Source: a virus. Taken from it: a DNA stretch of 64,000 bases. Below the pieces are notes generated by a model. That model had not been told where the DNA came from and did no database searches. It was given only the letters and a program-made list of their open reading frames with translations. This document shows, piece after piece, positions 4,466-57,710 of the stretch (position 1 is its first letter; each line of letters begins with the position of its first letter). The DNA is taken from positions 1 through 64,000 of IMG/VR virus record IMGVR_UViG_3300031857_000133, one strand, 5' to 3'. A program made the position numbers and the translations under genes.

Positions 4466-4472
4466 TATTTAG
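4466..4472 (-). promoter_or_regulatory. Late promoter motif CTAAATA before gp19
   Basis: The minus strand reads CTAAATA, overlapping the sheath stop codon and ending 22 bases before the tail tube ATG. CTAAATA is the form of the T4-type late motif reported in cyanophages; here the same motif recurs before 6157, 18722 and 25150. Confidence 0.6.
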
Positions 4473-6157
4473 ACTGTACCTACCACTTCACTGAAACTTA
4501 CACCCGTACGTACTGCAACGAAGTTAAGTTGAATGAAGTTAATCGAACGAGCAGGTTTAATGTAAATGTCACCAACAAATTCATTACGATCAATAACTCC
4601 TGGTGTGTTGTTCGTGTCATCACAGACCACACGGAAGTCGGTAATACCACGACGACCTTGGACATCACGCAGGAATGGCTCTACTAAAGAAACAAATTGG
4701 GCACGTGTAAACTGATCATTAAACTCAAACAGAGAGAAACGTGCTGCACGTGAAATTGCTTTTTCAAGTGTGATGAACAAACGGCGAACATTGATACGAT
4801 CAAATGCGCTTGGCTTACTCAACATTGTCTTGTCACCATATAGAACTGTGCCTTCACCTGGGAACGAAACAACAGGATTAACACCTTTTTGATACAGTGT
4901 ATCACGTTCTGTTTTTGTTGGATTCCAAGCAAGTTTGATGATGTTTTTAATTACTCCACGATTCATACCACCAGGTGAGAACCATGGATCACGTTCTGTA
5001 TCGGTACGTACACATACGCCGGCAATGTCACCGTTAAGAGGAATCCAACGATAAACATCATTGTACTTATCGTACTGATATTTGTAGCCTGAATCGATTA
5101 CTGCATATGAAGATGATGTTAATGTATCACGATATGCCACAACATCCGTTGCTTCATTACCAGCATTATCAACACAGTCTGCTTTTTCTGGAGAAAGGAA
5201 TGCAACGCAGTCTTTACGTCCCTCAGCAATATTGCTAACAACATATGAAGCAACTGTGCTATTGCCTGTGCCAGTTACACATAAAGAGATTTCAACCGCT
5301 TCTGTATTTTTAAACAAATCCCATCCAGAATTAATTTGTGATGCGCCTACTACGCCGTCTGCACCATTTGACAGAGAGTATTCTACGTTTGCTGTGGTCG
5401 TTTTAAACGATGAAGCGTTGGCAGTAGAACCCCATGCTGTGCCAGCACTTAGATTTGCTGTTGCCGGATGTGCAGCCCACCATACATATTTTGATCTGTT
5501 TGAAATAACATTCTTGTAGTAATTGCTGTTGCCAGAATCATCTTTTGCATCCGATGCTTTTGAAACGAACGCATATTTTTCTAGAATTGTACCTGCTGTA
5601 CCTGTCCACAAGCCATCTTCATCAACAACGACGATGTGAACTTCATCGTTTGCGCCGCCTTTGTTTGCAACGTATTCCGATGTTCCAGTATTTGCGCTGA
5701 ATTGTGTGCGGTAAGGCCATGTTGCAAATGTTCCTAAATCTGCCATGGAAATTTTTAGTGAATTACCTAAAGCACCTGGCCAACGTGCTACCCATCCACC
5801 GTATGCGCCATCAGGATAATTGCTGTGATTGTCGTTCCAGTCATCCTCATTCTTAACGACAATTGCTCCGCCGTTTGCACTAGCGTTATTTGCGCCACTA
5901 GCAAGGGCACGAACGACTTTTAGATTGTTGCCATACGCCAGGAAATTCGCTGCGGAGAACCAATATTCATAATTATTGTTGTCTGGTTTACCAAACGTGT
6001 CCGCTAAACGAACCTCGTCGGCAATGGTTGTAACTACACTACATGGTCCCCAATTAAAAGGTCCTGAAAAAGCGCCAGCGGAAGTGACAACTGAAGGAAT
6101 AACTGTAGTCAGATCAATCTCTGATACATTCACTCCAGGTGATAATTGAAATGCCAT
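4469..6157 (-). CDS. gp18: Tail sheath protein, gp18-like
   Basis: This gene encodes 562 residues (T4 gp18 has 659). The protein is the contractile sheath subunit. The N-terminus (FQLSPGVNVSEIDLTT) is the standard sheath start, the middle holds the variable protruding domains, and the C-terminal core carries FITLEKAISRAARFSLFEFN, LRDVQGRRGITDFRVVCD, and the terminal strand GDIYIKPARSINFIQLNFVA that links neighbouring subunits. The gene follows terminase and precedes the tail tube gene. A CTAAATAC motif lies 43 bases upstream, with AGGAG before the ATG. Confidence 0.96.
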   Translation of the reverse strand: MAFQLSPGVNVSEIDLTTVIPSVVTSAGAFSGPFNWGPCSVVTTIADEVRLADTFGKPDNNNYEYWFSAANFLAYGNNLKVVRALASGANNASANGGAIVVKNEDDWNDNHSNYPDGAYGGWVARWPGALGNSLKISMADLGTFATWPYRTQFSANTGTSEYVANKGGANDEVHIVVVDEDGLWTGTAGTILEKYAFVSKASDAKDDSGNSNYYKNVISNRSKYVWWAAHPATANLSAGTAWGSTANASSFKTTTANVEYSLSNGADGVVGASQINSGWDLFKNTEAVEISLCVTGTGNSTVASYVVSNIAEGRKDCVAFLSPEKADCVDNAGNEATDVVAYRDTLTSSSYAVIDSGYKYQYDKYNDVYRWIPLNGDIAGVCVRTDTERDPWFSPGGMNRGVIKNIIKLAWNPTKTERDTLYQKGVNPVVSFPGEGTVLYGDKTMLSKPSAFDRINVRRLFITLEKAISRAARFSLFEFNDQFTRAQFVSLVEPFLRDVQGRRGITDFRVVCDDTNNTPGVIDRNEFVGDIYIKPARSINFIQLNFVAVRTGVSFSEVVGTV

Positions 6158-6212: not shown

Positions 6213-7847
<1,635 letters not shown>

Positions 7848-8282
7848 TTAACGTGTGAAACTCTTCAGCATCCAACCATGTTTCTGATGAGCATCAAGAA
7901 TATCTTGTAAGAAGTTGCCTACCGCAGGTTCGTCTGCCGCATCTGCAAGTGCAATACCTGTACGCAATTCCATGATATACTTGTCATTGTCTTGAGCAAG
8001 TTCAGACATCATGATAAGTGGTGAAGGTATGGCAACAATGTCTTGCACCTTTGACAGTTCCATCATTCGTGCAAGTGTTGTTGGTGCATATGAATTTAAC
8101 GCACGAATATGTTCGGCAATTGAATCGGTCTGATCAAACACTGCATCATAAAAGTCTCCTAAGAAACCATGATACTGTGCAAAGTCTGGACCCTCTACAT
8201 TCCAATGAAAGGTGTGTGCTTTGAAATACAAACCAAAGTTTGTACCTAAAATAACCTTCATCTGTTCGATTAGTTGTTCCAT
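7848..8282 (-). CDS. Dps-like ferritin (DNA-protection / iron-binding protein)
   Basis: This gene encodes 144 residues, close to the short Dps subfamily. Dps proteins form 12-mers that oxidise and store iron and can shield DNA. The N-terminal helix has the Dps signature HTFHWNVEGPDF; the second helix is DFYDAVFDQTDSIAEHIRAL followed by NSYAPTTL. The inter-subunit ferroxidase ligands are present with family spacing: His26, His38, Asp53 and Glu57. The fifth usual acidic ligand position (38+4) is Gly42, with Asp43 next to it. The C-terminal helix ends HQKHGWMLKSFTR, as in Dps. There is no long Lys-rich N-terminal tail, so direct DNA binding is uncertain. It lies between the terminase subunit genes, so it is expected to be expressed late with head and packaging genes. 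Confidence 0.9.
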   Translation of the reverse strand: MEQLIEQMKVILGTNFGLYFKAHTFHWNVEGPDFAQYHGFLGDFYDAVFDQTDSIAEHIRALNSYAPTTLARMMELSKVQDIVAIPSPLIMMSELAQDNDKYIMELRTGIALADAADEPAVGNFLQDILDAHQKHGWMLKSFTR

Positions 8283-8286
8283 AATT

Positions 8287-8688
8287 TTATTTATTTCCTT
8301 TAATCATTTTAAGTAATTCGTTAGTGGAGCCAACAAACACTGCCTTATCTATGTTGACTCCTTTACTAGTTTCAGATTGAGGTGCAAGCTCTTTTTTTCT
8401 TTTCTGTAACTCTAGTAAATCTTTGTTCATCTCAGCCAAATTCTTCATCATTGTGGCTAAGACTTCATATGCTCTTGGTGATTCTGATTGATTTGCAACT
8501 GATGCCAGTTCTGTCATTGCTCTGTTGCCATTATTAATTAGTTCACGCATATTTGTACGAGCAAATTCAGCATCAGCGTCAATTTGATTGTTGCTGTCAT
8601 TTACAACAGCAGGCAATGTTTCTATAGTTTTTTCTTCAATCGGTTCAACATCGAAGATTTCTGATAAGTTTTTATTTAATTTTTTCAT
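8287..8688 (-). CDS. gp16: Terminase small subunit, gp16-like
   Basis: This gene encodes 133 residues (T4 gp16 has 164). The small subunit forms a ring that regulates the large-subunit ATPase and recognises DNA to start packaging. The central segment (~45-100: ARTNMRELINNGNRAMTELA, then SESPRAYEVLATMMKNLAEM and LLELQKRKKEL) is the helical hairpin/coiled-coil core seen in gp16 of T4-like aquatic phages. Its start overlaps the gp15 stop... the gene overlaps the upstream gp15-like gene by ATGA. It is separated from the large subunit by the Dps-like gene, whereas in T4 the two subunits are adjacent. Confidence 0.85.
   Translation of the reverse strand: MKKLNKNLSEIFDVEPIEEKTIETLPAVVNDSNNQIDADAEFARTNMRELINNGNRAMTELASVANQSESPRAYEVLATMMKNLAEMNKDLLELQKRKKELAPQSETSKGVNIDKAVFVGSTNELLKMIKGNK
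8288..8294 (-). promoter_or_regulatory. ATAAATA motif 5 bases before the Dps-like start
   Basis: The minus strand reads ATAAATA, overlapping the gp16 stop codon. If it acts as a late promoter, transcription would begin at about the A of the ATG (8282). An AAGGA sits 13 bases upstream of the ATG, too far for an optimal ribosome binding site. It could instead be ordinary A+T-rich spacer. Confidence 0.3.
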
Positions 8689-9683
8689 AATGTATCAGGC
8701 CATTCTTTAATTGTTTCAATGAATCCAAAGTCCGAAGGTGGCGCAGCATTTGTAGGAGTAGGCTCAGTGATTATTGCAACTGCATTAATTGAATTGATGT
8801 CTGATGTTGAGACATTATATCTTGCGCCAGAATAATCACCCGTAAGAGTATATCCAGTTTCAATATACTTATTACCGCCAGTAATAACTAACGCTCCTAA
8901 TGATGTGTTGCTGAAGTATTCTACCGTGCCAAAGAAACCATTTGCAGAATCACGAATTGTTTCACCAGTGGTAAATACATTATTACCATTTGCGTAATCG
9001 ACGTAAACTTTTTGTACCAGTTTTGATGTTAAATCAATATTCAGATTCGAATTTGCAGCATGAATAATTTTGCCAGATTTGACAGGTGGCCAGATGAAAC
9101 TCTTAGCCGTAAACGTCAAATCCCACATAATTATTCTTGTTGTGCCATCACTCATTCCACCTTCATACTCAACTGTAGATGCTACAGAATTCAGTATAAT
9201 AGGCACAGTATATTTCTGACCCATCGATGGAATAAAATCTACAACAACACTAAAGTCTGGTGTGAAGAATGGTAAAATTTGTTCGAGTATCTGTGTGCCG
9301 TCTTCTGTATTGCGAACATAAATCGACAGACTGAACTCGAAATTATAAGGCACAGGAAGAAACTGTGTTGCAACACCGGTGTTTGTCGCAGCAGAAAAAT
9401 TTTGTAGTGTTGAAATTTGTTTACGGCTTGCATCATACTCAAGACTGTCAAGATTGAATGACATTCTTGGTATAACAGAATTAATTGACTTAACTAAATT
9501 TGGATCGGATGTAATCTGTGTCAGATATCTTTCTTTTGGTCCATAAGATAGTGGTACTTTAAGTTTTTCTTTTGGATTACCTGACTGTGTATAGCGAACA
9601 ATCTCAAGATCATTAAACAACGTGCCAAACACAACAACCATCTTACGAATGGTGCGGTGATAAAACTGAGCATTACCTAACAT
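8685..9683 (-). CDS. gp15: Tail sheath stabiliser / tail terminator, gp15-like
   Basis: This gene encodes 332 residues (T4 gp15 has 272). gp15 hexamers cap the finished tail and bind the neck. The N-terminus AQFYHRTIRKMVVVFGTLFNDLEI and the following KVPLSYGPKERYLTQI (~42-57) with PRMSFNLDSLEYDASRK (~71-87) are the expected gp15 features. Residues ~220-332 form a beta-rich extension with no T4 equivalent that I can place. It overlaps gp14 by TAATG and the gp16-like gene by ATGA, keeping the T4 order 13-14-15-16. Confidence 0.9.
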   Translation of the reverse strand: MLGNAQFYHRTIRKMVVVFGTLFNDLEIVRYTQSGNPKEKLKVPLSYGPKERYLTQITSDPNLVKSINSVIPRMSFNLDSLEYDASRKQISTLQNFSAATNTGVATQFLPVPYNFEFSLSIYVRNTEDGTQILEQILPFFTPDFSVVVDFIPSMGQKYTVPIILNSVASTVEYEGGMSDGTTRIIMWDLTFTAKSFIWPPVKSGKIIHAANSNLNIDLTSKLVQKVYVDYANGNNVFTTGETIRDSANGFFGTVEYFSNTSLGALVITGGNKYIETGYTLTGDYSGARYNVSTSDINSINAVAIITEPTPTNAAPPSDFGFIETIKEWPDTL

Positions 9684-31041: not shown

Positions 31042-31971
31042 TTAAGAAGAACGTATAAGTCTAACGATTACGATACCAGAACCTCCAGCACCAGCAACGG
31101 ATGGTCCGCCGCCACCGCCGCCACCGCCAGTATGTGCGACACCATTTTCACCTGGTGATAAATCTATACCACCACCTCTGCCCGCACCAAAAGGTGTGCC
31201 CACAAATGCTCCATGGGGAGGTAAAGTTGAACTTTCTGACCCATAATGACCCGGTAGTTTAGAGTTGCCACCACCAGCAAATCCTGTACCAGGATATCCA
31301 TAAATTCCATAATCACCACCAGCACCGGCACCTCCACCACCATATGCAGTATTAGCACCACTTATGCTAGAAAAAATTCCTCTGCCACCGTCTCCTGGTG
31401 TATCTAAGCCAGCACTTCCAGTACCTCCACCGCCACCTTGTCCAAGAAATCCAGCTCCGCCACCGTTATTGCCCTCTGAGGGGCTATATCCACCAACATT
31501 TCCAGAACCGCCTGCATGATACGACTGATTACCTCCACCTCCTGCACCACCACCCGAACCGCCAGGACCACCACCATTACCTGTGCCAGGACTATCATTA
31601 ATGCCCGCACCATAACCACCACCTGTTGACCAATATGCAGGAAATGGTGAAGCAGAAAATATACCCGAATTTGATCCTGAAGCTCCCAATACAGGACCAT
31701 TACTTCCACCACCGCCAACTTGAACTGTATATGATGTGCCAGGAGTTACTGATATGGATGTAATAGTTCTGACACCACCAGCTCCACCACCTCCTGAAGG
31801 GGCACGACTAGCAGCACCTCCACCTCCAGCGACAATTAAAACATCCATTGATGTAACTGTGGGTGGTATTACAAAAGTGCCACTGCTGGTAAATAATAAT
31901 CTTCCAGTTGACGGCCTTCTAGTCAAAAACGCCACAGATGCGGTTGATATTAGCGTGTTCAATCTAGGCAT
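31042..31971 (-). CDS. Glycine-rich adhesin-like protein, one module
   Basis: This gene encodes 309 residues. After a short N-terminus (PRLNTLISTASVAFLTRRPS) a single module opens with GTFVIPPTVTSMDVLIVAGG and closes with SGIVIVRLIRSS. It contains loops KLPGHYGSESSTLPPHGAF and AGRGGGIDLSPGENG not found in its paralogues. It follows the 318-residue fibre-like protein by one base. Confidence 0.83.
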   Translation of the reverse strand: MPRLNTLISTASVAFLTRRPSTGRLLFTSSGTFVIPPTVTSMDVLIVAGGGGAASRAPSGGGGAGGVRTITSISVTPGTSYTVQVGGGGSNGPVLGASGSNSGIFSASPFPAYWSTGGGYGAGINDSPGTGNGGGPGGSGGGAGGGGNQSYHAGGSGNVGGYSPSEGNNGGGAGFLGQGGGGGTGSAGLDTPGDGGRGIFSSISGANTAYGGGGAGAGGDYGIYGYPGTGFAGGGNSKLPGHYGSESSTLPPHGAFVGTPFGAGRGGGIDLSPGENGVAHTGGGGGGGGPSVAGAGGSGIVIVRLIRSS

Positions 31972-33397: not shown

Positions 33398-34303
33398 TCA
33401 CCAAGTAATTAATATAATACCTGAACCACCAGAACCACTCAGTGCAGACATTGGTCCTGCACTACCACCTCCACCACCACCTCTATTTGCAATACCACTC
33501 TCGGCTAAGACTGGACCACCAGCGTTTGATGAACCAAATGAACCAGCATTACCGCCACCACCACCAAACCCCCATTTACTAGGATCGTGTGGAGCACCAC
33601 CACCTCCAGCGGCGTAGCCGACATTTGCTCCACTAATTGAAGAGAATATACCTACGCCGCCATTACCACCTTTAAATCCTGCAAATGGACCTGGTGTGCT
33701 TTCACCAACAGCACCAGCACCACCGCCTCCACCGCCTCCACCAGAAAATCCACCATCACGGTTTCCATTGCTTGACCCACCATTATTTCCTTCTGATGGA
33801 TTAAAACCTCCAAGATTCCCACCACCACCACCAGCACTTCTATTATCGCCTTGTTGTCCGCCGCCGCCAGAACCGCCGCTACGTCCACCAGTATTGAAAC
33901 CAGGATTTGTTATGCCACCGCCACCGCCACCGCCCGTTGCTGAGATTGCTGGAAATGGTGCAGGTCCAGTTATCGTTGATGCAGATCCATCAAAACCCTG
34001 ATTAAATGGACTACCATCGGTTCCAATTTTTCCACTTCCGCCAGCGCCAATCGTAAATGTATAAGTTGATCCCGGTACAACCGTAGCAATTCCCGATCTA
34101 ACTCCACCAGCGCCTCCACCAGCACCAAAATTTCCACCACCGCCTCCGCCGCCGGCCACAATTAGATAATTAATGCTTGATACTCCAGACGGTGCTTGCC
34201 AAACACCAGACGCATTAAAAGTGCCTAATCTTTGAAAAACTGCACCGGTTCTAGTAAATGAACTTCTAGAAACTAAACTATTTGAAATTCTTTTAATGGC
34301 CAT
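33398..34303 (-). CDS. Glycine-rich adhesin-like protein, one module (duplicated cassette)
   Basis: This gene encodes 301 residues. The N-terminus (IKRISNSLVSRSSFTRTGAV) leads into one module opening GVWQAPSGVSSINYLIVAGG and closing SGGSGIILITW. It is the counterpart of 11557-12471: both are downstream of a ~110-residue beta protein and an NNI-repeat protein in the same order. Loops differ (HDPSKWGFGGG, GPVLAESGIANRGG), as expected after duplication and divergence. Confidence 0.85.
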   Translation of the reverse strand: MAIKRISNSLVSRSSFTRTGAVFQRLGTFNASGVWQAPSGVSSINYLIVAGGGGGGGNFGAGGGAGGVRSGIATVVPGSTYTFTIGAGGSGKIGTDGSPFNQGFDGSASTITGPAPFPAISATGGGGGGGITNPGFNTGGRSGGSGGGGQQGDNRSAGGGGGNLGGFNPSEGNNGGSSNGNRDGGFSGGGGGGGGAGAVGESTPGPFAGFKGGNGGVGIFSSISGANVGYAAGGGGAPHDPSKWGFGGGGGNAGSFGSSNAGGPVLAESGIANRGGGGGGSAGPMSALSGSGGSGIILITW

Positions 34304-57270: not shown

Positions 57271-57278
57271 TATTTATG
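57271..57278 (-). promoter_or_regulatory. Late promoter CATAAATA for gp48, overlapping the gp4 start codon
   Basis: The minus strand reads CATAAATAC, 29 bases before the gp48 ATG, with AGGA in the leader. The plus-strand gp4 ATG at 57276 lies inside this octamer. No TAAATA motif is visible on the plus strand upstream of gp4. Confidence 0.6.
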
Positions 57279-57710
57279 TCAAATAAAGGAAGATTTAGAC
57301 CGAAAAACCCACAGAAATATAAGGGTGATGCAAACAATATCATCTATAGGTCTACGTGGGAGATAAAGGTAATGAATTATTTAGATGAGAATCCGAACGT
57401 CATTTGGTGGGGTTCGGAAGAACTTCCTATACCCTATTACAGTCCAGTCGATAGAAAAAAACATCGTTACTTTCCAGATTTTATCGCCAAGATGCGTAAA
57501 GCGGACGGCACAGTGATGACTTATGTTATAGAGGTTAAACCGGAAAAACAAACACAACCGCCAACACAAAAACGCAAGACAAAAACATATCTCCAAGAAG
57601 CCATCACTTACGAAATCAACAAAGCCAAATGGTATGCTGCCGAAGAATTTTGCAAAGATCACGGGTGGCAGTTTCAGATTTTGACTGAAAAGCATTTGGG
57701 TATCAGATAA
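57276..57710 (+). CDS. gp4: Head completion nuclease, gp4-like
   Basis: This gene encodes 144 residues (T4 gp4 has 150). gp4 completes the packaged head and has a TnsA/restriction-endonuclease-like fold. Motifs: YRSTWEIKVMNYLDENPNVI (~28-47), WGSEELPIPYYSPVDRKKHR, YFPDF with Asp68-type acidic residue, then VIEVKPEKQ (the E-x-K nuclease motif, ~91-99). These form the candidate active site. It is the first plus-strand gene, starting 34 bases from the gp48 start. No Shine-Dalgarno is seen before the ATG. Confidence 0.92.
   Translation: MSNKGRFRPKNPQKYKGDANNIIYRSTWEIKVMNYLDENPNVIWWGSEELPIPYYSPVDRKKHRYFPDFIAKMRKADGTVMTYVIEVKPEKQTQPPTQKRKTKTYLQEAITYEINKAKWYAAEEFCKDHGWQFQILTEKHLGIR

Follow-up and report, generated by a model that had tools for sequence, protein, structure and literature searches.

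Bacterial proteins of the Dps family provide the closest described systems for the phage protein studied here. Nearest in sequence among the solved Dps chains (1.3e-19) is PA0962 of Pseudomonas aeruginosa, which uses H2O2 and not O2, whose deletion sensitises P. aeruginosa to H2O2, and which lacks basic tails and cuts DNA in vitro when divalent ions are present (PMC10002758). PA0962 (PDB 8ff9) resembles the phage protein in fold (TM 0.93, 33% identity), in the equal spacing of four direct iron ligands and in being tail-less, but it is encoded by a bacterial chromosomal gene and carries Glu at the fifth position of the iron centre, where the phage protein has Gly42. Bacillus brevis Dps (1n1q), the best Foldseek match of our model (TM 0.94), and B. 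anthracis Dlp-1 and Dlp-2 are also tail-less mini-ferritins of a length similar to that of the phage protein, but they are bacterial and only about 28% identical to it.

Phage Dps is known as well, from 45 isolate records. The phage family phrog_3636, to which the protein described here belongs, includes proteins of Salmonella phage 7-11, Aeromonas phage LAh_8 and Synechococcus phages S-SRM01 and S-EIVl; these differ in that they are 27-33% identical to it and are encoded away from the terminase pair, in nucleotide-metabolism or other regions. A position between TerS and TerL was seen in none of the five isolate neighbourhoods examined out of those 45 records. A freshwater phage ferritin, together with other genes, has been proposed to serve as a ROS defence of infected cells (Kavagutti et al. 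2019, PMC6802176); the searched text of that paper mentions neither Dps nor a terminase-linked position. Searches of the open-access literature on phage or viral Dps or ferritin and on terminase links gave no report of Dps fixed between the small (TerS) and large (TerL) terminase subunit genes. Phage ferritin-like genes are usually viewed as scattered extras, whereas here one occupies a fixed position in the packaging block.

A Dps gene lies between the terminase genes

The window, i.e., the whole 64,000-nt stretch of DNA that was analysed, contains the following genes around the locus:

4469..6157, minus strand: tail sheath, gp18 type, downstream of TerL (phrog_23, 1e-135)
6213..7844, minus strand: TerL, T4 gp17-type terminase large subunit, 543 aa (PF03237, 1.3e-30; PF17289, 7e-17)
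7848..8282, minus strand: Dps-family mini-ferritin, tail-less, ATG start, 144 aa (PF00210, phrog_3636, structure model, Foldseek, ligands H26/H38/D53/E57)
8287..8688, minus strand: TerS, T4 gp16-type terminase small subunit, 133 aa (PF11053, 1.2e-10; phrog_445, 4e-33)
8685..9683, minus strand: gp15-type tail sheath stabiliser, overlapping TerS by 4 bp (PF16724, 1.8e-63)

In the direction of transcription the order is gp15, TerS, Dps, TerL, sheath and tube, which is T4-like, with the gp15-type gene as the first one upstream of TerS. Both families of the T4-type gp16-gp17 packaging module are thus matched within a single late-type gene block, and the window TerL is about 54% identical to the closest isolate TerLs (those of S-PM2 and pelagiphage Mosig). 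Four bases separate the TerS stop from Dps and three separate Dps from the TerL start, so the coordinates agree with the gaps given in a first-pass annotation made from the sequence alone. The same annotation expected the protein to be made together with the packaging proteins. Since only 3-4 bp separate the Dps gene from its neighbours within a block of head, packaging and tail genes, co-production with terminase is indeed to be expected and seems probable from the gene context. A T4-type late promoter motif, TATAAATA, was not enriched in the window (2 matches vs 4.6 expected), and a scan of the window for sigma-70 promoters gave results at chance level. Late timing is therefore read from the gene context.

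The protein is predicted to be a tail-less, acidic mini-ferritin

The first-pass annotation had recognised a Dps-like ferritin gene between the terminase genes and had proposed a profile search as a check. That search matched the Ferritin and Dps families: Pfam Ferritin (PF00210) at 1.1e-20, with 74.4 bits against a cutoff of 24.5, and phrog_3636 at 4e-31, while solved Dps chains were matched to 1e-19. The NCBIfam Dps equivalogs gave matches below cutoff only. Judged by sequence, the Dps match of the 7848-8282 ORF is far above chance. An AlphaFold2 model of the monomer, built on an alignment of 22 sequences (window and IMG/VR), reached a pLDDT of 95.4 and a pTM of 0.91, and its top PDB matches in Foldseek were Dps proteins without exception (TM 0.93-0.96). 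The model helices (2-28, 34-49, 52-61, 70-76, 88-115 and 119-143) form a ferritin-type four-helix bundle with a short BC helix. As only the monomer was modelled, a 12-subunit shell is proposed as the most likely assembly. The motifs HTFHWNVEG and HGWML are both present in the 144-aa protein, as had been claimed for HTFHWNVEG and GWML along with ligands H26, H38, D53 and E57.

The phage protein has neither an N- nor a C-terminal tail; the median N-terminal extension is 13 residues in the bacterial homologues and 0 in the phage proteins. No basic tail of the kind carried by E. coli-type DNA-binding Dps was found at either terminus, and the proteins are acidic (about 10 K/R vs 16-21 D/E). For these two reasons, DNA coating in the manner of E. 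coli Dps is unlikely.

The direct iron ligands are invariant

Each of the 132 distinct sequences whose alignment spans the relevant columns has H26, H38, D53 and E57 (two partial rows stop short of the ligand columns and so fall outside the 132). Their spacings of 12, 15 and 4 are identical to those of H37, H49, D64 and E68 of PA0962, which are direct diiron ligands. The fifth acidic position of the canonical centre (position 67 in E. coli) is occupied in the window protein by Gly42 and is thus not acidic; across the family it is not conserved (G in 81, N in 33, D in 12). The neighbouring Asp43 is kept in just 35 of the 132 and is therefore unlikely to act as a substitute ligand. In published structures the fifth position binds iron through water or is dispensable: residue 67 of E. 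coli is water-mediated, and Dps4 of Nostoc punctiforme, with Asn67 at the position of Gly42, nonetheless oxidises iron with O2 (PMC6675082). Dps4, which has a His-type ferroxidase centre, differs in that His78 replaces the A-site Asp and an extra His164 is present, whereas the phage protein retains Asp53. Thus, Gly42 is compatible with activity. The B site is perhaps weak, and both B-site binding and the choice of oxidant may be altered. The doubt about activity that had been raised over Gly42 and Asp43, two residues correctly described at first pass, is largely answered by these structures, though not by Asp43.

Because the direct ligands are invariant and the closest solved relatives are H2O2-using Dps proteins, iron/peroxide chemistry of the phage protein is likely. 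The earlier suggestion that it protects phage DNA from iron-driven oxidation can be retained for this chemistry, but hardly in the sense of classical DNA coating, given a tail-less and acidic protein.

The TerS-Dps-TerL order is a lineage trait

Searching IMG/VR with the Dps sequence as query yielded 80 loci, with identity down to 65%, and in all 80 TerS and/or TerL adjoins Dps. IMG/VR was also scanned independently with TerL, which removes the bias of a Dps-based search. Among the 75 loci found in this way (TerL 76-98% identical, at least 450 bases upstream of TerL), Dps lies directly upstream of TerL in 74; the exception is L138, in which TerS and TerL are almost adjacent, without Dps. When the loci found with either protein were pooled, 205 of 214 had the order TerS-Dps-TerL, 7 were cut by a contig end, and in the remaining 2 (L129, L134) TerL stands beside Dps and TerS was not detected; by hand count the 214 loci represent more than 150 different contigs, some contigs having been fetched twice. 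Dps still occupies the slot in L053-L057, though TerL there is only about 43% identical. Median dN/dS was 0.067 for Dps, 0.044 for TerL and 0.086 for TerS, and this nearness of the Dps value to those of the terminase genes argues that retention of Dps is selected. The TerS-Dps-TerL order is thus a lineage trait of a large uncultured phage group.

The terminase junction is a cargo slot

The limits of this trait became visible among more distant relatives. In the second TerL lineage (the L053 type), Dps is present at 32 loci and absent from 42, a split that closely tracks TerL similarity, and around the pelagiphage Mosig-type TerL none of 72 informative loci has Dps at the junction. The junction is empty in L432, is occupied by an SNase gene in L450 (1185-1613), L457 and L477, and holds a 2OG-Fe(II) oxygenase gene plus one further ORF in L500. 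A GIY-YIG/NUMOD homing-endonuclease-like gene stands between Dps and TerL in L021 and L039. Since relatives hold the junction empty or filled with such different genes, we regard it as a cargo slot, one worth mining across T4-like phages, and Dps as cargo retained by one large phage group. Neither this slot nor the fixed gene order across the lineage had been described in the first-pass annotation.

Proposed function and alternative explanations

We consider it probable, with real room for doubt, that the protein is a late-made mini-ferritin which clears Fe2+ and H2O2 in the infected cell during DNA packaging and whose gene was acquired by insertion into the slot. The gene would have entered the TerS-TerL cargo slot and then been kept for a long time by purifying selection. 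The protein would be synthesised with terminase late in infection, when host control of peroxide and iron may be failing and phage DNA is concentrated and is being cut and packaged. Twelve subunits would form a shell with diiron centres between them, at which Fe2+ would be oxidised, probably by H2O2, with the iron stored inside. Hydroxyl-radical damage would thereby be limited and both DNA and packaging proteins protected, by a protein that is probably soluble in the infected cell and does not coat DNA. A peroxide role is supported by rubrerythrin, a member of a peroxide-reducing family, which is also encoded by the relatives G001 and G005 (2 of 15 records searched, mostly fragments). A fixed and strongly selected Dps in the packaging block suggests that iron or peroxide control matters during DNA packaging in these phages, and oxidative or iron stress at packaging may constrain them.

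The variety of genes at the junction could also mean that the slot simply tolerates insertions, and that Dps, an ordinary auxiliary gene, sits there without any meaning for packaging. The empty junctions of L138 and L432, the SNase, oxygenase and homing-endonuclease-like genes, the Dps-like genes located elsewhere in isolate phages and the 0 of 72 pelagiphage-type relatives with Dps at the junction all fit this reading. Yet near-universal retention in two TerL lineages about 43% identical, under strong purifying selection, speaks against it. It accounts for place and not for function, being compatible with the mini-ferritin proposal, and as a complete explanation we regard it as rather unlikely. 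We give similarly tentative standing to a stronger claim, that in a large group of uncultured aquatic phages Dps is a working component of the packaging machinery, located where DNA is packaged or inside the head, and would there control iron and radicals or process DNA during translocation. If true, this would amount to a module for oxidative protection linked to terminase, of a kind that has not been described in cultured T4-like phages. A narrower variant, in which the shell acts on DNA by binding or cutting it, or attaches to TerS or TerL, so as to degrade host DNA or prepare the genome, is quite improbable. DNA processing is kept in consideration because the tail-less PA0962 cleaves DNA in vitro, and some relatives have a nuclease gene (SNase) in the TerS-TerL slot. 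T4 TerS and TerL, however, package without Dps, and close relatives have both subunits without it. TerS itself weakly matches phrog_3636 (0.0015), a match of helical regions that probably reflects helical composition and was set aside as weak.

Carriage in the virion had been raised at first pass, and would place Dps in or on the capsid, where it would protect DNA while the particle is free or as ejection proceeds. The gene indeed has head, packaging and tail genes as its neighbours and is almost never lost, and Dps genes of other aquatic phages stand near virion-type genes, e.g., that of a phrog_1645 virion structural protein by L227. In addition, long proteins of uncultured Caudovirales that are named 'Prohead protease' in BFVD (A0A6J7WPK9, A0A6J7XDU5 and A0A6J7WIS1) have models in which structure comparison recognises a Dps fold; fusion of Dps to a head protein, if true of these entries, would be notable. 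Against this, none of 78 related ORFs shows a fusion, and no capsid-targeting segment is visible in the tail-less protein of 144 residues, so we find virion carriage unsupported and unlikely. The genes neighbouring Dps gave no prohead-protease match either, and a Dps-prohead protease fusion was set aside, to be kept as a lead. The Dps fold can store iron, and the protein might accordingly bear iron on the particle for uptake or adsorption, or hoard it to starve the host or competitors; beyond the fold, nothing specific in our data points this way. The Ferrojan horse idea, invoked at first pass, reportedly concerns iron in phage tails that is recognised by siderophore receptors. Here no tail domain is attached to Dps, and we regard such a role as very unlikely.

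Origin of the gene and the probable host

Phage Dps proteins, i.e., those of the terminase-slot lineage and of a second aquatic phage set, group in a clade of their own, separate from the bacterial proteins (SH-aLRT 100). Terminase-slot Dps falls in three places of the tree, but a single-clade constraint gave a p-AU of 0.4, so that one clade also fits. Dps distances correlate weakly with those of TerL (0.16) and more strongly with those of TerS (0.42), probably because TerL or Dps was exchanged in some lineages; we make no claim of strict vertical linkage between Dps and terminase. A bacterial donor was considered and rejected, as the closest bacterial Dps proteins are just 33-41% identical and belong to the separate clade. 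The 49% match, L227, comes from a phage-like MAG contig and hence indicates no bacterial donor. This contig (CAIWHI010000271.1, 132 kb) is labelled Bacteroidetes and has the look of a phage that was placed in a bacterial bin. It belongs to the second large aquatic phage group (L227, L317-L394). Dps in that group is about 49% identical and is part of different, likewise tight operons, with a cytidylyltransferase gene (phrog_3041) nearby and, at some of the loci, genes for virion structural proteins.

The close relative G001 (133 kb, the contig of L007) has 26 tRNA genes together with a permuted tmRNA (L311, L312, L313). The tmRNA (L313:7171-7567) matches the betaproteobacterial family RF01850 over its full length and has the tag ANDAFYGEERLAA. 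The rubrerythrin genes (PF02915, 5e-25) lie at C1:110733-111161 in G001 (L312:10733-11161) and at C1:91178-91612 in G005, and their products are 70-76% identical to Burkholderiales proteins. From the tmRNA match to RF01850 and the Burkholderiales-like rubrerythrin, the host of G001 is probably a betaproteobacterium; by extension, the window phage itself may have such a host. G001 and G005 thus each encode a second ferritin-superfamily peroxide protein beside Dps in one phage.

Two further observations concern the window. A gene for a protein with a TnsA-like endonuclease N-terminal domain (57276-57710; PF08722, 1e-23) marks the switch from minus- to plus-strand transcription in the structural region, and two glycine-rich proteins (PF21722), possibly tail-fibre related, are encoded on the same strand at 31042-31971 and 33398-34303.
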